NCBI RefSeq assembly: GCF_027359395.1
Contig: NZ_CP114778.1
Location: 558,001 to 622,000, forward strand
Source: Prochlorococcus marinus str. MIT 1013
GTDB lineage: Bacteria; Cyanobacteriota; Cyanobacteriia; PCC-6307; Cyanobiaceae
DNA: 64,000 nucleotides
Direction: 5' to 3'
The notes beneath the pieces were generated by a model. That model was not told the origin of the DNA and ran no database searches. It was given only the letters and a program-made list of their open reading frames with translations. Below, piece after piece: positions 15,560 through 58,610 of the stretch. How positions within the stretch are numbered: position 1 is the stretch's first letter; each line of letters begins with the position of its first letter. The position numbers were made by a program, and so were the translations under genes.

Positions 15560-16387
15560 ATGGATTTGAAGGATCTTTCGCAAGAAGAAGGTTTTTCTTT
15601 AATAGAACTAGTAGTTGTAGTGTCAGTGCTTGCGGTCTTAGCATCCATTGGTATTCCCACCTTTAATTGTTTTCAGCGTCAAGCAAAGGCTACTGCTGCT
15701 TTGGCAGCCATGAAACAAATTCAAACTGAATGTTTAATCACTAAATTAAGCGAGAAAAACTCATATGAATTTATTCAAAGCAATTTAAATTCTTACCAGA
15801 TTCAATCAGATGGATCAAATAGCTGTGATGGAGAATCAGGCACTGGATTGATTAGTGCAATACCTACTGATACGAATCTATTGCCTACTTTTGTATTGGC
15901 ATTAAGCAGTAATGAATTAAGTTATAGCTTTAAAGGTCAGACAGGGACTGACTTGACAGATTGCTTCGCGTTGATATGTAGTAATGCAGCTCCAAACCCA
16001 GATCCAGATCCAGATCCAGACCCAGATCCCGACCCAGATCCAGACCCAGATCCCGACCCAGATCCAGACCCAGACCCAGACCCAGACCCAGACCCAGATC
16101 CAGACCCAGACCCAGATCCAGATCCCGATCCCGATCCCGATCCAGATCCAGATCCCGATCCAGATCCAGACCCAGGGGGCGGCCTACCACCAGGGACTCA
16201 GGTGAGATATAGGAATATCTACGGAAATAACGGATTAGCTGATGATGGTGGTGAGATGTGGAATGGGGGCTATGATAATTTGCCAACCGGATGCAGGATG
16301 CTTTTGCCAGACTCAACCACCTGGGAGGCTTGTCCGGATGGGTGTGAGCGCACGCCTGGTGGAAATGGGGAGGGTACTTGTCCCTAA
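15560..16387 (+). CDS. Type IV pilin-like protein with Asp-Pro repeat stalk
   Basis: A 275-residue secreted pilin-like protein. The N-terminus has a prepilin peptidase site, EEG/FSLIELVVVV, with the conserved Glu5 and a hydrophobic helix. The core is pseudopilin-like (AKATAALAAMKQIQTEC) to about residue 145. About 60 residues of near-perfect (Asp-Pro)n repeat follow (bases about 15991-16176), then a Cys-containing C-terminal domain (RYRNIYGNNGLADDGGEMW ... GEGTCP). The first 85 bases of the pilin helix are almost identical to the gene at 19124, while the C-terminal part is unrelated. The role is probably surface display or adhesion. Confidence 0.8.
   Translation: MDLKDLSQEEGFSLIELVVVVSVLAVLASIGIPTFNCFQRQAKATAALAAMKQIQTECLITKLSEKNSYEFIQSNLNSYQIQSDGSNSCDGESGTGLISAIPTDTNLLPTFVLALSSNELSYSFKGQTGTDLTDCFALICSNAAPNPDPDPDPDPDPDPDPDPDPDPDPDPDPDPDPDPDPDPDPDPDPDPDPDPDPDPDPDPDPGGGLPPGTQVRYRNIYGNNGLADDGGEMWNGGYDNLPTGCRMLLPDSTTWEACPDGCERTPGGNGEGTCP
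15991..16176 (+). repeat. Hexanucleotide (Asp-Pro) coding repeat
   Basis: A tract of GAYCCN-type codon pairs, mostly cc-aga-tcc variants, encoding alternating Asp and Pro. It is G+C-rich compared with its surroundings and likely to vary in length by slippage. The antisense frames it creates are artefacts. Confidence 0.9.
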
Positions 16388-19123: not shown

Positions 19124-20101
19124 ATGGATAAAAGTTTAAAGCTAAAACTCTTAAGGAATATCTTTGCTAAGGAAAGTCAGGAAGGTTTTTCTTTGATAGA
19201 ACTAGTAGTTGTAGTGTCAGTGCTTGCGGTCTTAGCATCCATTGGTATTCCCACTTTTAACTGTTTCCAGCGAAAAGCTCAAGCAACTACTGCTTTAGCA
19301 GCTATGAAACAAATTCAAACTGAATGTCAAATTAATAAATCTAATACGGGTAACACAGATACATTTACTTCAAGTAATTTAAATTCTTATCAAATTCAAT
19401 CAGATGGATCTAACAGTTGCAGTTGAGCCTCAGAGACTGGATTGATTAGCGCAATACCTATCGACACAAATATATTACCTACTTTTATATTGGCGTCTAA
19501 TAGAAATGAATTAACTTATAGCTTTAAAGGTCAGGAGGGAAATGATCTGTCTAATGGTTTGCAATTGGTTTGTTCTGTTGCGAATGGATATAGAGGAGGC
19601 AATGCATTCAAAGAAAGTATAGAAAAAAATTCTTTTGTCCGGAAAGATACTTATATTGAAAGAGGTTGTTCTGCTTATGTATTGGTAGATGGACCTGACT
19701 GGAGTGATGCTAATGCCAATGCGAAAGCTTTGGGCGGAAATTTAGTAACTGTCAATGATGAAAGAGAAAGCAGTTGGTTGGGTGATGAGTTTTCTAAAGC
19801 AAAATATCAATATTCTGATGATAATCATTCATGGGCCCCACAAGAACACACAATTAGCCATTTCTGGACAGGAGCTAAACGAAGTTCAAATGGTAGTTGG
19901 GAGTGGACAAGTGGAGATTCCTTTGACAATTCTCTCTCTAATCTTGAACTAAACAACAATGCTCAGACTCATGACAGATTATTAGCAATATTTAATAACC
20001 CAAATCATTCTAATCCCAATATTTATCTAGATGACATGTTTGGAACTCCTTTAGAAGGCAGTTATCAAGGGATGGCCGAGATTTCTTTATGTAATAACTA
20101 G
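19124..20101 (+). pseudogene. Type IV pilin-like C-type-lectin protein with one in-frame TGA
   Basis: The frame starts at TTG or ATG near 19124 and shows the prepilin site QEG/FSLIELVVVV. It runs to NSCS and meets TGA at 19424-19426. Translation resumes in the same frame (ETGLISAIPIDTN) to TAA near 20101, for about 325 residues in total. The second part carries a C-type-lectin-like domain (GCSAYVLVDGPDWSDANANA, LGGNLVTVNDERE, SWLG, FWTGAKRSSNGSWEWTSGD). The TGA replaces a codon present in the paralogues at 15560 and 57936 (minus). It is either a nonsense mutation, a sequencing error or a readthrough site. Confidence 0.75.
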
Positions 20102-25828: not shown

Positions 25829-25857
25829 AGCTATTACTAGCGAGCCAACACTCAAGA

Positions 25858-25874
25858 GGGACCAGTGAGGGACC
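25858..25874 (+). repeat. Arm-type repeat pair, GGGACC class
   Basis: GGGACC at 25858 and 25869, 11 bp apart. The second unit ends 53 bp from the tRNA-Pro fragment end at 25927. Same class and same spacing as 47664-47680. Interpreted as the right arm of the element to the left. Confidence 0.65.
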
Positions 25875-25891
25875 TTTAGCGTCTTCCCATT

Positions 25892-25919
25892 AAAAAAGAC
25901 AGGCTGGGAAACCTGTCTC
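25892..25919 (-). terminator. tRNA-Pro-associated terminator hairpin copy
   Basis: On the minus strand AGACAGGTTTCCCAGCCTGTC pairs and runs into T6. Confidence 0.7.
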
Positions 25920-25926
25920 TGACTGA

Positions 25927-25970
25927 TCGGGGCGACAGGATTCGAACCTGCGACCTAGTGCTCCCAAAGC
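25927..25970 (-). repeat. tRNA-Pro 3' fragment (attachment-site scar)
   Basis: Identical to the intact tRNA-Pro 3' half, from the discriminator base to just past the anticodon loop (through cccaaagc). It then diverges and marks a crossover point. Confidence 0.9.
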
Positions 25971-26065
25971 GCTGGTCTATATTTAGTGACACCAGTCAAT
26001 TACGGCTATAACTGCAATTATAGCTTAGTCTGTCTTGACTTGTCATGACCAAGATGACATGATTT

Positions 26066-26082
26066 GGGTGCATTTTGGGTGC
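26066..26082 (+). repeat. Arm-type repeat pair, GGGTGC class
   Basis: GGGTGC at 26066 and 26077, 11 bp apart. The pair ends one base before the integrase ATG at 26084. It begins 139 bp from the tRNA fragment end, exactly as in the 47733 element. Confidence 0.7.
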
Positions 26083-26083
26083 A

Positions 26084-47634: not shown

Positions 47635-47663
47635 AGCTATTACTAGCAAGTTAATACTCAAGA

Positions 47664-47680
47664 GGGACCCGTGAGGGACC
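47664..47680 (+). repeat. Arm-type repeat pair, GGGACC class
   Basis: GGGACC at 47664 and 47675, 11 bp apart. Ends 53 bp from the tRNA fragment end at 47733, exactly as at 25858. Confidence 0.65.
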
Positions 47681-47777: not shown

Positions 47778-47871
47778 TCGAGCCCCATAAAGCTATAACT
47801 AGGGTTTCTAGTGATACCAACACATTAAAAGGACTACCACTTGCAAGCAAACTTGAAAAAGACTATATTTT

Positions 47872-47888
47872 GCCCACGATATGCCCAC
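47872..47888 (+). repeat. Arm-type repeat pair, GCCCAC class (integrase end)
   Basis: GCCCAC at 47872 and 47883, 11 bp apart, starting 139 bp from the tRNA fragment end. It lies over the integrase leader and ends 4 bases before ATG 47893. Same hexamer as the element's right end. Confidence 0.75.
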
Positions 47889-47892
47889 AAAA

Positions 47893-49116
47893 ATGCCAAG
47901 GATAAATAATCAAGAATATTGGGCGGTTGGTCTAAGAAAAGGAGTCTCAAAACTCGCTAAAGGTTGGACTGTTGAAGAAGCTCGCGGAAATGTACGTCTT
48001 GTTATCAGGGTTCCTGACACTCCAAAGCAATCAGTTGTTTTGCCTTTTGCATGGAATGAATTAGCCGCTGATGATGCATATATAAGAGTCAGGAATATTT
48101 TCGTCACGATGAGAGAAGAGGGTCGAGACTTAAAAACGGCTGCTCAAATTACATCTGGTGACGCTCCTAAATTACAAACCGAGCACGACTGGAGAGGAGC
48201 GATAGATAGATTCAAAATTCAAAAGACCAAACACGGGAAAACAGTTAAAGAGGTTACATGGGCAAAAAAATATGAACCAGTAGTGACCGATGCGGTGGAT
48301 TTATTAGAGAAAGGGAAAGCTAGCAACCCTGAAACTTTGATTGATCTTTGCATCCGCAATTGGGAAGCAGGCAGTAGGACAAGACAAGAAAGAGCAAGAA
48401 ACCTTGTTCAATTTCTCAAGCATTGTGTTTATCGAGAAAAGTTCCCTGTTGCGTGGATTCCTACAACAGAGCTAAAAGATCACATTGGAGAGAAGAAAAC
48501 AGATTCAGTTTCTAATGCGGGTGATCCAATCACAGATCAACAAATCATTAACTTGATTAATTCTTTTCCTGATACCGACAATGCGAATAAATGGGCTGAT
48601 GCTGTTCGACTAATGAGCGAATTAGGTCTTAGGCCAATTGAATTAAATTTCCTTTCTGTTAAAACTGATCGCAAAACTGGGAAACCTTATTGGTGGTGTT
48701 CTTATCAAAAGCGCAGCGGCGGCGGCACTACTAAGCCTCGACAAGTTCATCCGCTTCCATTGGTCGATGATCAAGGCGAGGTTCAGCAGTGGAACCTTAT
48801 GAAACGCTGGCAAGCGAAAATGATTCCTTTGCCTTCATGCGAGAAACAAAACGCTTTAAAAGATTTCTTGAGAAAGCAACCCTATTGGAACTCATTAAAA
48901 GAAGAGCTAAAAGCAAATGATGAGAATTTAAAACCATATTCACTAAGGCACTCATACAGTCTTCGAGGACATCAACGAAATATTGACGGCGGCTCAATGG
49001 CCTCATCGATGGGTCACAGTTATGAATGTCATTGTCGTGAATATTCATGGGCATCTAAAGAAGGAACAGAAAGTGCATTTGAAAAGGCCAACAAAACCCT
49101 TGCTATGGCGGCGTAG
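47893..49116 (+). CDS. Tyrosine recombinase (tycheposon-type integrase)
   Basis: About 407 residues. ATG 47893 (MPRINNQEYWAVGLRKGVSK) is preferred to 47881 because the other integrase and relics start Met-Pro and because the first ATG lies inside an arm repeat. The N-terminal arm-binding segment is KLAKGWTVEEARGNVRLVIR. The catalytic boxes are SELGLRPIELN, YSLRHSYSLRGH, MGHSYECH and CREYSWAS (nucleophile Tyr). It is related to, but clearly different from, the 26084 enzyme, and most diverged around the proposed arm-binding strands. Confidence 0.92.
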   Translation: MPRINNQEYWAVGLRKGVSKLAKGWTVEEARGNVRLVIRVPDTPKQSVVLPFAWNELAADDAYIRVRNIFVTMREEGRDLKTAAQITSGDAPKLQTEHDWRGAIDRFKIQKTKHGKTVKEVTWAKKYEPVVTDAVDLLEKGKASNPETLIDLCIRNWEAGSRTRQERARNLVQFLKHCVYREKFPVAWIPTTELKDHIGEKKTDSVSNAGDPITDQQIINLINSFPDTDNANKWADAVRLMSELGLRPIELNFLSVKTDRKTGKPYWWCSYQKRSGGGTTKPRQVHPLPLVDDQGEVQQWNLMKRWQAKMIPLPSCEKQNALKDFLRKQPYWNSLKEELKANDENLKPYSLRHSYSLRGHQRNIDGGSMASSMGHSYECHCREYSWASKEGTESAFEKANKTLAMAA

Positions 49117-53419: not shown

Positions 53420-55138
53420 ATGCCTCAAAACAATCCCCCAATTCTTTTAGAAGAAACCAACAAACCAGATACAAAACAATATACTGTTGAGTTTGACGGA
53501 ACCGTGCCAACTGCCACAGGTGCGTACACTGCAGAATTAACTGAACGTAAGACATTTAATATTTTTAGAGCTTGGAATGCCAGCATAAGTCCAAAGGAAT
53601 ACGGTCTTTACTGGACTCATGACATCTATGATGAACTCCCCGGTAAGTTTTCTCTAGAAACACCAGGTTGGAACTATCACTATGTTGGGAAATCATGGAA
53701 TAACTATCCAGGGATCGAGCAATTTGTGAGAAAAGGAGTTAATTGGGGTCATGCGGCTGAGTACGGAACAACGCTAGCCACTGATTACACTAATCCTGAA
53801 TTTCACGATTATTTCGCAGAATTAGTAGCAATCCTAAATAGCGATGTGGACGGTATATTGCTTGATTGGTGGCATGACAATCATTATGAAATAAATAGTA
53901 AGTCTGCAGTTGCGAAGGCTCGAAAGCAAATCGCACAGCATGTTCGCGAAAAGATGGGTGATGACTTTTTACTCGTTGGTAATGTTAATTGGGACAAAGA
54001 CACTGCCACTATCGAGAACCTGAATGGAGTTTTTCTAGAACTCTACAAAACGCCATATGAGAGAAAGAATGCTTATACTTCTATTGAAATTGATAGTATG
54101 ATTGATGTCCTGAAGTATTACGAAAACGAACTTCAATATCCTAAACTTATTGCTTTTGAACCGTGGCGTGTATCGCAGCAATCTAAAGCAAATGGCAAGT
54201 CGTTAACCGAGGATCGCCTCACACCAGAAAATCAGAGATTTGCTAAGTTATTTGCAACAATATTGAGTGTTCATACTAGCAATGGTTATTACCTATATGC
54301 TGACAATAATCACGACACGGAGGATGGTGATCACGGTCATGCTTGGTACTCATTTTATGATTTAGACATCGGAAAACCGACATCAAAAGGCGTTGAAGTT
54401 GCTAATAGAATTGGCGTCAGAAAATATGAAAAAGGATTGCTTGGCTACAACTATACATCCAGAGATATCGAAATAGATACACCAAACGGCACAATCAAGA
54501 TTCCATCTCAAAGTGGGGCAATCCTATATTTAGACAGTGCATCTACTCGAGCAAAAGAGGCGACTAATGTGAGTGATTTAATTCTTCGAGAGCAATACCA
54601 ACTTAGTACAGTTAAAGATTATGATGGCAACTGGCATGGATATTTAAGAACTAGTGCTCCTGAAGCTGTCAAATCCACTTATAAATATCAAGGGGAGTTA
54701 GATGTTAATAATGATGAGACAACAGAAGCAATTTTTACTAATAAGGAAAGCGGTCGTTGGGTAACTGCATCTATTGATCCAGTTACAGGAGCCTTTGATT
54801 ATTCCAAGCATGGAGCAGGTGGAACCACAAGGATTGTGGGGATTTATCAGGATCCATTAGTGGCGAATGGAACGGTAGAAAAAGATAGCGTCTTTGATGG
54901 ATCGCGAACGTTTATTAATGATCTAAAACTGGATAATCTTATTCTTAAGACAGTGGGTGACTATGACGGTGATGGGTTTCAAGAACTTTATTGGAGCAAA
55001 GTAGATAACTCTGCATATTTAAGAGCCGTTATGCATGCAGATGGCAATATCCAATACGCTAACTATCAAAATCTACAACAAATGACTGATTACTTAACTG
55101 GTAATGGTTTTGCAAATATTATTCCTTTGATTGCTTGA
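53420..55138 (+). CDS. Large cargo protein: putative glycoside hydrolase (GHL15-like) with C-terminal repeat domain
   Basis: 572 residues, no signal peptide. The N-terminal half looks like a TIM barrel: FNIFRAWNASISPKEYGLYW, VNWGHAAEYGTTLATDYTNP, SDVDGILLDWWHDNHYEINS (acidic strand end), LLVGNVNW, LIAFEPWRVS and GYYLYADNNHDTEDGDHGHA WYS. This fits the hypothetical glycosyl hydrolase family 15 layout. The C-terminal part (from about 375) has Asp-rich DYDGNWHGYLR and GDYDGDGFQELYWSKVDNS segments, like beta-propeller or calcium-binding secreted-protein repeats. It may leave the cell by a type I route. The substrate is unknown. Confidence 0.6.
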   Translation: MPQNNPPILLEETNKPDTKQYTVEFDGTVPTATGAYTAELTERKTFNIFRAWNASISPKEYGLYWTHDIYDELPGKFSLETPGWNYHYVGKSWNNYPGIEQFVRKGVNWGHAAEYGTTLATDYTNPEFHDYFAELVAILNSDVDGILLDWWHDNHYEINSKSAVAKARKQIAQHVREKMGDDFLLVGNVNWDKDTATIENLNGVFLELYKTPYERKNAYTSIEIDSMIDVLKYYENELQYPKLIAFEPWRVSQQSKANGKSLTEDRLTPENQRFAKLFATILSVHTSNGYYLYADNNHDTEDGDHGHAWYSFYDLDIGKPTSKGVEVANRIGVRKYEKGLLGYNYTSRDIEIDTPNGTIKIPSQSGAILYLDSASTRAKEATNVSDLILREQYQLSTVKDYDGNWHGYLRTSAPEAVKSTYKYQGELDVNNDETTEAIFTNKESGRWVTASIDPVTGAFDYSKHGAGGTTRIVGIYQDPLVANGTVEKDSVFDGSRTFINDLKLDNLILKTVGDYDGDGFQELYWSKVDNSAYLRAVMHADGNIQYANYQNLQQMTDYLTGNGFANIIPLIA

Positions 55139-56563: not shown

Positions 56564-56637
56564 TCGGGGCGACAGGATTCGAACCTGCGACCTAGTGCTC
56601 CCAAAGCACCCGCGCTACCAAGCTGCGCCACGCCCCG
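56564..56637 (-). tRNA. trnP: tRNA-Pro (UGG)
   Basis: A 74-nt cloverleaf on the minus strand: acceptor CGGGGCG / CGCCCCG plus A73, D arm GCGCAGCTTGGTAGCGC, anticodon loop TTTGGGA (anticodon TGG), and T arm GCAGGTTCGAATCCTGT. It is the only intact copy in the window and the target of all the integrative elements here. Confidence 0.95.
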
Positions 56638-56713
56638 TTACTGCTTTTTCAGGCTCTCACCAACTTTGTGCTTTCTTGTGACTAGTCATGCATGCGCATG
56701 AATACTATTCTTA

Positions 56714-56730
56714 GGCCGCAACTAGGCCGC
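56714..56730 (+). repeat. Arm-type repeat pair, GGCCGC class (integrase end)
   Basis: GGCCGC at 56714 and 56725, 11 bp apart, starting 77 bp from the tRNA 5' end. Same distance as the GGACAT pair from its tRNA half at 58155. Confidence 0.7.
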
Positions 56731-56737
56731 AAAACCA

Positions 56738-56849
56738 TTACCTAGAAAAAAGGCCACAAAGATGGGAAGAAACATTAAAAGAGAATATAAGAAGTTTAAA
56801 CCGAGGGTGGTCCATTCAGGAAAATAAATGTAAAATGCACCATTTTTAA
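56738..56849 (+). pseudogene. Integrase N-terminal relic (GGCCGC class)
   Basis: After a lost start (TTA in place of ATG) and a one-base A-run insertion, the frame reads RWEETLKENIRSLNRGWSIQ then ENKCKMHHF and TAA. It aligns with the integrase opening MPRINNQEYWAVGLRK...KGWTVEE. All downstream integrase sequence is deleted. Confidence 0.75.
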
Positions 56850-56928
56850 ATGGCTAATTCTATTAGAAAAATAAGGAAACAAATATTGAATGCTGTTTTT
56901 TTATAGTTTGCAAAAAGATGTGGTTATG

Positions 56929-57936
56929 TCAATCACATATTGGGACCTCTGCAATCCCCCAGTTGTAAGCCCAATAAGCATCATCTGCTAATTCGTAATA
57001 TTCTTTAGGGTCAATTGGTTCTTGCCACCATCCATTTAATCCACCATGACGCTCAGCATGACCAGATGGATCCTTCATTAACAAATGAAACCCTCCTGCT
57101 GTCCCTCTCTGATGATATTCATTATTCCAGTCACCTTGCCCTGCCCCATATGGTGAGTCATAACCTTCATCTAATTCATTATCATTAGCCCAATTCAAAT
57201 TACCTTCTGAATCTGAACTCAATCCAATCCAAGCTCCTGCACGCATTCCATAACCCCAGTTAGGATCTGGTTGAGACAACATGTCACCGTAAGTCTCGTT
57301 TAAAAATTTATTTTCACCTTCATTATTTGGTGTTGTTAGAAATCCGCCTAGTTTTTGGGCATTTTCATTTGCTTCTGTCCAGGATGATCCTCTCACCAAT
57401 GCATAAGCAGAACAACCTCTCTTTGCCAAACTACCTTCAAATACAACATCACTATTTTCCATTATTAAGCCTTCAAGAGACTGGTTATTATAAGAACCAC
57501 AAATTGCACTTAAACAAGCATTAAAATTACTCCCTCTGGAACCTTTAAATGAATAAGTCAAAAGATTATTACTTGTTTCAAGAATAAAAGTAGGCAAAGT
57601 TGTTGTATCGTCTGGTATTGCATTAATGAGACCTGACGTTTGCGCTCCGCTACAGCTTTTAGAACCATCTGACTGAATCTGGTAAGAATAAAGATTGCCT
57701 TGATAAAAAGTCGCTGAACTATTTGAATCTAATTTTTTAACCATACATTCTTTTTGTATTTGCCTCATAGCTGCTAACGCAGCTGAAGCTTTTGATTTTC
57801 TCTGTAAACAAAAAAAAGAAGGAATTGAAATTGAAGCCAATATAGAAAGAACAGAAACAACAACAACTAATTCAATTAAAGAAAATCCTTCTTCTTTAGA
57901 TCTAATCGTTAAGTCCATTCTTATAGTTTTTGTCAT
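56929..57936 (-). CDS. Type IV pilin-like protein with C-type-lectin-like domain (335 aa)
   Basis: Prepilin site EEG/FSLIELVVVV at about residue 17, then the helix and KASAALAAMRQIQKECMVKK. The middle pilin core runs to about residue 150. The C-terminal domain has the lectin-like pattern GCSAYALVRGSSWTEANENA, KLGGFLTTPNNEGENKFL, AWIGLSSDSEGNLNWANDNE and the end AYWAYNWGIAEVPICD. It is intact, unlike the homologue at 19124. It is the only gene in a mini-element, so it is cargo. Probably displayed on a pilus or the cell surface, with a role in attachment or recognition. Confidence 0.8.
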   Translation of the reverse strand: MTKTIRMDLTIRSKEEGFSLIELVVVVSVLSILASISIPSFFCLQRKSKASAALAAMRQIQKECMVKKLDSNSSATFYQGNLYSYQIQSDGSKSCSGAQTSGLINAIPDDTTTLPTFILETSNNLLTYSFKGSRGSNFNACLSAICGSYNNQSLEGLIMENSDVVFEGSLAKRGCSAYALVRGSSWTEANENAQKLGGFLTTPNNEGENKFLNETYGDMLSQPDPNWGYGMRAGAWIGLSSDSEGNLNWANDNELDEGYDSPYGAGQGDWNNEYHQRGTAGGFHLLMKDPSGHAERHGGLNGWWQEPIDPKEYYELADDAYWAYNWGIAEVPICD

Positions 57937-58033
57937 TATTTTTAATTAACTAGAAAGTATACAAAAGATATTCAGATCTTTACATCTTTTGTTTAACGTC
58001 AAATCTAATAACTCAGGCGGGTATAAATTTCTA

Positions 58034-58050
58034 GGCCGCGCTTAGGCCGC
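58034..58050 (+). repeat. Arm-type repeat pair, GGCCGC class (right end)
   Basis: GGCCGC at 58034 and 58045, 11 bp apart, left of the tRNA-Pro 5' half at 58109. Same hexamer as 56714-56730. Confidence 0.7.
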
Positions 58051-58108
58051 ATTTAAAAAGGCTTGTTTTGAATATCCCTTTTACTGATTAGCTTTTAAGG
58101 GGGGTGAG

Positions 58109-58155
58109 ACTAGTGATCCCAAAGCACCCGAGCTACCAAGCTAAGCCACGCCCCG
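58109..58155 (-). repeat. tRNA-Pro 5' half (truncated copy)
   Basis: Matches the intact gene from the 5' end through the D arm and anticodon arm (ccgagctaccaagctaagccacgccccg). The 3' half is degraded. It has gatccc where the intact gene has gctccc, shared with the fragment at 8318. It cannot fold into a working tRNA. Confidence 0.85.
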
Positions 58156-58231
58156 CTACTGCTTTTTCATTCTCTCACTAACTTTGTGCTTTACCGTGAC
58201 TAATCATGCATGGGCGTGAATGATACTCTTA

Positions 58232-58248
58232 GGACATTTCTAGGACAT
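58232..58248 (+). repeat. Arm-type repeat pair, GGACAT class
   Basis: GGACAT at 58232 and 58243, 11 bp apart, 77 bp from the tRNA half. Flanking bases are homologous to 56640-56740, but the hexamer is different. Confidence 0.7.
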
Positions 58249-58254
58249 AATCCT

Positions 58255-58377
58255 TTTCCTAAGATAGTAAGAACTCAAAGATGGGAAGAAACCCTTAAAA
58301 AAGAAATTAGAAGTTTAGCCCGTGGGTGGAGCGTTCAGGAAGAGAAAGGCAAAATACGCCAAATTTTTAAAGGATAG
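58255..58377 (+). pseudogene. Integrase N-terminal relic (GGACAT class)
   Basis: With TTT where ATG is expected, the frame reads PKIVRTQRWEETLKKEIRSL, ARGWSVQEEKGKIRQIFKG and TAG. Clear homologue of the first 40 residues of the intact integrases. The rest is gone. Confidence 0.75.
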
Positions 58378-58437: not shown

Positions 58438-58610
58438 TCAATTACACGTTGGGACGTCAGCTATTCCCCAATTATAAGGCCAATAAGATTTCGAATTACC
58501 AGCATCTTCATAATACTGTGCACCATTAATCATTGAATAATCATCTCCCCACTCGTCCAAATAAATTCAGCGAATATCATTATTAGCTGGCACAGGATAA
58601 ATTAGAGATA
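58438..58610 (-). pseudogene. C-terminal relic of a pilin-lectin gene
   Basis: The minus strand reads VPANNDIR, a TGA, IYLDEWGDDYSMINGAQYYE, then SYWPYNWGIADVPTCN and TGA. The end matches AYWAYNWGIAEVPICD of the 57936 gene. Only the lectin end remains, so a fourth member of the family once lay here. Confidence 0.7.

Follow-up and report, generated by a model that had tools for sequence, protein, structure and literature searches.

A probable non-autonomous pilin-lectin mini-element with cyanophage-type ends at a Prochlorococcus tRNA-Pro gene

Background

Pavlovic et al. (2004) reportedly described cis-mobilizable elements (CIMEs). The movement of CIMEs is described as occurring in cis, by accretion. 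Integrases of the lambda type bind paired arm sites with their N-terminal domain and exchange strands at the core with their catalytic domain. In Prochlorococcus, tRNA elements called tycheposons are said to have been described by Hackl et al. (Cell 2023). Tycheposons span 4-200 kb according to the figure quoted in the available text of PMC10872708. Integrase-less islands that keep their att sites occur at ssrA in Dehalococcoides, as given in the available text of PMC3146451, and additive flexible genomic islands, for example those of Actinomarinales, consist of tRNA-targeted gene cassettes in the available text of PMC7771536.

Here we analyse a unit of about 1.5 kb (unit A) within a 64-kb stretch of the Prochlorococcus marinus MIT 1013 genome (the window, to whose numbering all coordinates refer). 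We consider unit A to be probably (at a rough probability of 0.7) a non-autonomous mini-element with cyanophage-type ends that depends on a helper integrase. Like CIMEs and the Dehalococcoides ssrA islands, the tRNA-Pro units considered here lack a recombinase, keep attL and attR, carry useful cargo and stand in tandem arrays at one RNA gene, with movement presumed to be aided by a neighbor; unit A itself retains both att sites and has no integration or transfer genes, and its place in a tandem array fits accretion. Unlike CIMEs, the tRNA-Pro units have phage-like ends and often hold a single gene (0.65-4 kb), and each has its own matched arm word that a helper is predicted to read in trans. 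With additive islands they share the small tRNA cassettes, the partial tRNA copies that serve as direct repeats (and also bound unit A) and the exchange between lineages, but an arm-site code, an integrase-bearing partner and a helper phage do not appear in the available text of PMC7771536. Tycheposons are likewise Prochlorococcus elements that target tRNAs and carry cargo genes, with tyrosine recombinases like those of unit A's neighbors. Unit A is also integrated at a tRNA, but it has neither a recombinase nor a hallmark gene, is 1.5 kb in size rather than the quoted 4-200 kb, and has ends that match phages and not its tycheposon-like neighbors. Given that tycheposons were compared second-hand, four features appear to be new here: the code of matched arm words, units the size of a single gene, the phage partner, and arms swapped between units with related cargo.

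Structure of unit A

Unit A occupies positions 56638-58109, between an intact tRNA-Pro(TGG) gene that forms its attL (56564-56637, minus strand; identified by ARAGORN and by repeats) and a displaced copy of the tRNA 5' half (58110-58155, minus strand) that forms its attR and was formerly the left end of a second unit, unit B. The displaced half is 46 nt long and 91% identical to the intact tRNA, with mismatches at 4 of the 46 positions of the attR core. The left end, from tRNA to arm (56638-56711), is followed by the left arm TAGGCCGC-AAC-TAGGCCGC (56712-56732, plus strand), and the right arm TAGGCCGC-GCT-TAGGCCGC (58032-58050, plus strand) by the right end, from arm to att core (58051-58109). 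Both arms have the same orientation, as direct rather than inverted repeats, and the words of each pair lie 11 bp apart. The initial annotation had described tRNA-Pro sequences and matched GGCCGC arms as bounding the unit, and we found them at both ends.

Two scans bear on how unusual these arms are. Across the window, TAGGCCGC-N3-TAGGCCGC occurs exactly twice, at 56712 and 58032, with an expectation of 0.00 from 100 shuffles; the arm-word scan covered the window and the retrieved loci. When the window was scanned for repeats with a GC content of at least 50%, a length of at least 8 nt and periods from 8 to 15, all six of those with an 11-bp period were located at tRNA-Pro att ends. Other periods gave zero or one repeat each, except for period 12, the excess of which is almost wholly one coding repeat. 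The arms are predicted to be integrase-binding sites.

The gene content of unit A is confined to the cargo gene and an integrase stub. The cargo (56929-57936, minus strand) is intact and encodes a type IV pilin-like protein of 335 aa that has a C-type lectin domain, and the stub (56748-56837, plus strand) retains phage-integrase residues 5-34. Examination of the ORFs of the unit revealed no phage structural or replication genes of the kind that an intact temperate prophage has, and no deep-branching tyrosine recombinase is encoded, with only about 30 residues left and no start codon. The pilin-lectin is therefore the only gene of the unit, as had been proposed. The stub had been read as the first 35 codons of an integrase; the cut at about codon 35 is indeed there, but the lack of an in-frame start codon indicates a leftover rather than a 35-codon gene. 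Similarly, the proposed MITE-like character holds in one respect, in that a short non-autonomous derivative with useful cargo shares the ends of an autonomous element (here those of two phage contigs, L073 and L074) and would depend on its enzyme. Unit A differs from MITEs in having no terminal inverted repeats and no DDE transposase or other transposase family, and in using site-specific recombination of the tyrosine type at a single tRNA. We saw neither a circular form nor a joined attP of the mini-element, and scanning the region upstream of the tRNA for sigma-70 promoters gave no match.

The pilin-lectin cargo

Both Pfam N_methyl and Lectin_C match the 335-aa ORF (57936-56929, minus strand) above their curated cut-offs, and its N-terminus matches those of solved type IV pilins. 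In genome G130, copies of the tRNA 5' half flank a pair of pilin-lectins with 71% and 46% identity to that of unit A, and their unit has no arms of the unit A or B type. The dN/dS ratio between the unit A gene and the closer G130 homolog is 0.19, and hence the gene has evolved under purifying selection.

A protein scan of viral contigs and genome contigs with the pilin-lectin query alone returned no match, and neither did a comparison of the pilin-lectin with INPHARED phages.

Phage contigs with the same arms

We scanned 2.9 million viral contigs for double TAGGCCGC and obtained 12 stretches, two of which have an att layout: IMGVR_UViG_3300020445_000062 (L073) and IMGVR_UViG_3300030450_002913 (L074). 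In these two contigs the order is sigma-factor gene, right arm (TAGGCCGC twice), tRNA-Pro 5' half, left end, left arm (TAGGCCGC twice) and integrase. The integrase is intact (402-406 aa) and lies beside attP, so the full-length GGCCGC-arm elements that the initial annotation had suggested looking for do exist, as IMG/VR phage contigs. Both arms of L073 are the same as those of unit A, spacers included; its left end is 78% identical to that of unit A, and the right arm and right end of unit A align with L074 at 81% identity over 72 nt. Among the products of L073 and L074 are tail, tail-fibre, exonuclease and Erf/Sak-type annealing proteins, and on this gene content they are tailed phages; phage structural and replication genes are present in L073, L074 and L085. 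The sigma-factor gene directly precedes the right arm in both L073 and L074, with no lectin in between, and no pilin-lectin was found elsewhere in these two contigs, both of which are incomplete.

Integrases of the L073/L074 type had no match among INPHARED phages. Neither the MIT 1013 genome nor 400 genomes of the family yielded an integrase with TAGGCCGC arms, so a helper would need to come from outside. For the arm pattern TAGGACAY the viral contigs yielded 52 stretches, none with a related integrase, and no phage corresponding to unit B was found. A GGCCGC match in genome G212 was rejected as a chance occurrence in GC-rich, coding-like DNA. As a group, L073, L074, L085 and L086 are uncultured temperate tailed phages with an integrase unrelated to those of INPHARED records and a sigma-factor gene that abuts attP.

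Related units at the same tRNA-Pro

Unit A is adjoined by unit B (58156 to about 58590), which is eroded and was not mentioned in the initial annotation. Unit B has its own left arm, TAGGACAT-TTC-TAGGACAT (58230-58248, plus strand), an integrase stub without a start codon (58255-58374, plus strand) cut where that of unit A is cut, and an interrupted remnant of a pilin-lectin C-terminus (58438-58587, minus strand; ending in YWPYNWGIADVPTCN). With an arm, a stub and a broken lectin of its own to the right of unit A, unit B forms a tandem array with it at tRNA-Pro.

The near relatives of the window genome are Prochlorococcus single cells, and among 300 genomes of the family the phage-type left end occurs only in the window genome, G146 and G241. 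Units A and B and the G146 and G241 units have in common one integrase truncation point and the sequence from that junction to the pilin-lectin 3' end, which is absent from the phage contigs. This common junction is most simply explained by a single ancestral deletion that would have founded the mini-element lineage. The 5' side of the tRNA is free of units in genomes G056, G110 and G161, which carry native flank there.

Between unit A and the G241 unit the left ends are 93% and the lectins 92% identical, whereas the stubs are only 68% identical and the arm words differ (GGCCGC vs GGACAT). Between unit B and the G146 unit the spacer is 80% identical and the arm words again differ. Arm modules have been exchanged among these relatives of the unit. 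Treating unit B and G146 as one lectin type, which would have given a full four-way set of arms by cargo, was dropped since their lectins are only 62% identical, and the case for arm swapping therefore rests on the A/G241 pair and the B/G146 spacer.

These four closest copies all lie at one tRNA-Pro and three of them are eroded, making vertical descent of an old insertion possible for them. Copies of the exact mini-element at other tRNA-Pro loci, as had been suggested, were not found; the one tRNA-Pro that holds all close copies is its expected target. Unit A could then be the in-place remnant of a lysogenic phage with a lectin cargo, in which one deletion from integrase codon 35 to the lectin was followed by vertical inheritance. 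Such an origin would account for two phage-like ends, for the location of every close copy, for the decay of unit B, G146 and G241 and for the drifted attR of unit A. We nevertheless regard it as unlikely: both phages have the right arm straight after the sigma-factor gene without a lectin, one junction occurs with two arm words (A and G146 vs B and G241) and close cargo relatives differ in word, the lectin is intact and under purifying selection, and analogous clean cassettes exist in other genomes. A private, eroded remainder, which the initial annotation had named as the outcome that would count against it, is thus not what was found, given that unit B, G146 and G241 have the junction as well and that a pilin-lectin-only cassette with other arms, analogous to unit A, is present in another genus.

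The A/G241 comparison also bears on whether unit A might be a hybrid, produced by homologous recombination between neighboring tandem elements, one a GGCCGC prophage and the other a lectin element of greater age with the GGACAT word, without any need for a mini-element to be mobile. Left ends do exist as tandem direct repeats, arm-mismatched hybrids are found among surveyed units (see below), and the difference between A and G241 lies mainly in the arm-stub segment. Exchange at the left end, however, predicts a GGCCGC left arm with a GGACAT right arm, and both arms of unit A are GGCCGC and its right end aligns with phage right ends, so that this origin seems quite improbable. The mini-element with phage-type ends remains our preferred reading.

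Elements on the 3' side of the tRNA

Two displaced tRNA-Pro 3' halves, at 25927 and 47733, precede intact integrase genes at 26075 and 47881, respectively. The second of these elements has a left arm of two TGCCCAC words (47871-47888, plus strand) and an intact integrase (47881-49116, plus strand), with matched TGCCCAC arms at 47871 and 56513. Both elements are on the 3' side of the tRNA and unit A is on the 5' side, which means that unit A provides the tRNA 5' half and the region upstream.

The interval 25927-47733 has TTTGGGTGC as its left arm and GAGGGACC as its right arm (window 25856-26083 and 47662-47680), and GAGGGACC is also present before 25927. From this arrangement the interval is probably a nested or rearranged element. 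In the neighboring element with TGCCCAC arms and an integrase, a 572-aa ORF (53420-55138) that adjoins a VapE-like helicase gene shows only a weak Pfam trace of FG-GAP.

Integrase-less cassettes at tRNA-Pro

We surveyed 43 oriented loci and scored 109 intervals, of which 33 were non-redundant with both arms detectable. Separate labeling of pilin-lectin and integrase matches showed that the units with pilin-lectin hits hold no integrase. The same word was present at both arms in 30 of these 33 units, whereas 2000 shuffles of the partners gave 3.1 such units on average and never more than 10, and the remaining three were arm-mismatched hybrids. Among units shorter than 4 kb that lack an integrase, 26 of 28 had matched arms. 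Integrase-less cassettes with matched arms are thus common in tandem at tRNA-Pro across Prochlorococcus. This degree of matching, together with the position of the arms beside att sites, their fixed 11-bp period and the like arrangement at phage attP, leaves next to no credence for matched arms being coincidental or regulatory repeats without a role in recombination.

Individual units illustrate this layout. In G094, two complete copies of tRNA-Pro enclose a clean unit of 1.05 kb, with TAGGACAC twice at both ends and a single 258-aa ORF but no integrase. In G229, from another genus, five displaced tRNA-Pro 3' halves lie in series; one 1.34-kb interval holds a 345-aa pilin-lectin alone between arms of two TTTGCGTGT words, and the next interval holds another pilin-lectin. 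A 31-nt stretch of the tRNA-Pro 3' half is present in 105 of 121 genomes of this genus, in up to 13 copies each. Cargo of small cassettes includes a phosphate-binding-like protein, PhoH, an SdhA-like flavoprotein and DprA-like and inverse-autotransporter proteins.

Several pairs of loci carry signs of movement, with cassettes exchanged as units. G356 and G321 share a 3.2-kb integrase-less cassette at 99.8% identity, and the 700 bp on each side are dissimilar. Four more pairs have a conserved cassette and undetectable flank similarity on both sides, and a fifth further pair has short partial flank matches on one side only. The G349 array combines a 7.2-kb element, which contains a 412-aa integrase-like ORF, with a 1.2-kb cassette that has no integrase; the two have the arm word TTTGAGGGAA in common, and their ends are 79% (left) and 90% (right) identical. 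By arm word and ends, the two stand in the autonomous/non-autonomous relationship that the initial annotation had proposed. G374 contains two 100% identical integrase elements of 16,325 bp (L166 and L168) about 0.2 Mb apart, with identity ending 50-68 bp outside the element, just past the att halves, which suggests recent mobility of the system.

Proposed mechanism and implications

We propose that a temperate element of cyanophage type lost its integrase and phage genes and kept an att half, the left end, the paired arms and the right end, between which the single pilin-lectin gene of unit A now sits. A phage or a resident element would provide the integrase in trans; with an arm-binding domain that reads TAGGCCGC, this enzyme would bridge both arm pairs and cut in the tRNA-Pro anticodon arm, such that the cassette is inserted or excised. 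The core is placed in the anticodon arm because the copies in phage attP and on the 3' and 5' sides overlap only there. An end arriving on the 5' side would rebuild the tRNA 5' half and bring an upstream region with it, displacing the old half, and successive insertions would then give the tandem A-B array. We infer movement in trans from this arrangement, in that such an integrase would be expected to act on a cassette that lacks its own integrase but has intact arms and att halves. The exact crossover and a recent movement of unit A are likewise inferred, and its own present mobility is doubtful given the four attR mismatches and the lack of a matching integrase in the genome.

More tentatively, and with somewhat less than even confidence, we suggest that Prochlorococcus tRNA-Pro loci might be integron-like arrays, in which matched pairs of arm words (7-10 nt, 11 bp apart) address phage or resident integrases, a swap of words (as between A and G241) changes the helper, and pilin-lectins are a recurrent cargo. 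If this is true, streamlined ocean cyanobacteria could gain and lose single genes, among them adhesins and genes for a phosphate-binding-like protein, PhoH and succinate-dehydrogenase-type proteins, without a separate recombinase for each. Temperate phages with the matching arm word would be named helper candidates, and arm words would make helper-cassette pairs predictable from sequence. What moves integrase-less islands would thereby become a testable question, also for the additive islands of other marine bacteria.

Additional arrays and pilin-like genes

In the L174 (G270) and L178 (G447) tRNA-Pro arrays, a phosphate-binding-like protein, PhoH with a LOG-like ORF, and SdhA/B/C-like ORFs are present as small integrase-less cassettes. 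Elsewhere in the window, a pilin-like ORF (15560-16387) has a long Pro-Asp repeat past its pilin domain, and near it lies a further pilin-lectin (19124-20101) with one in-frame stop.
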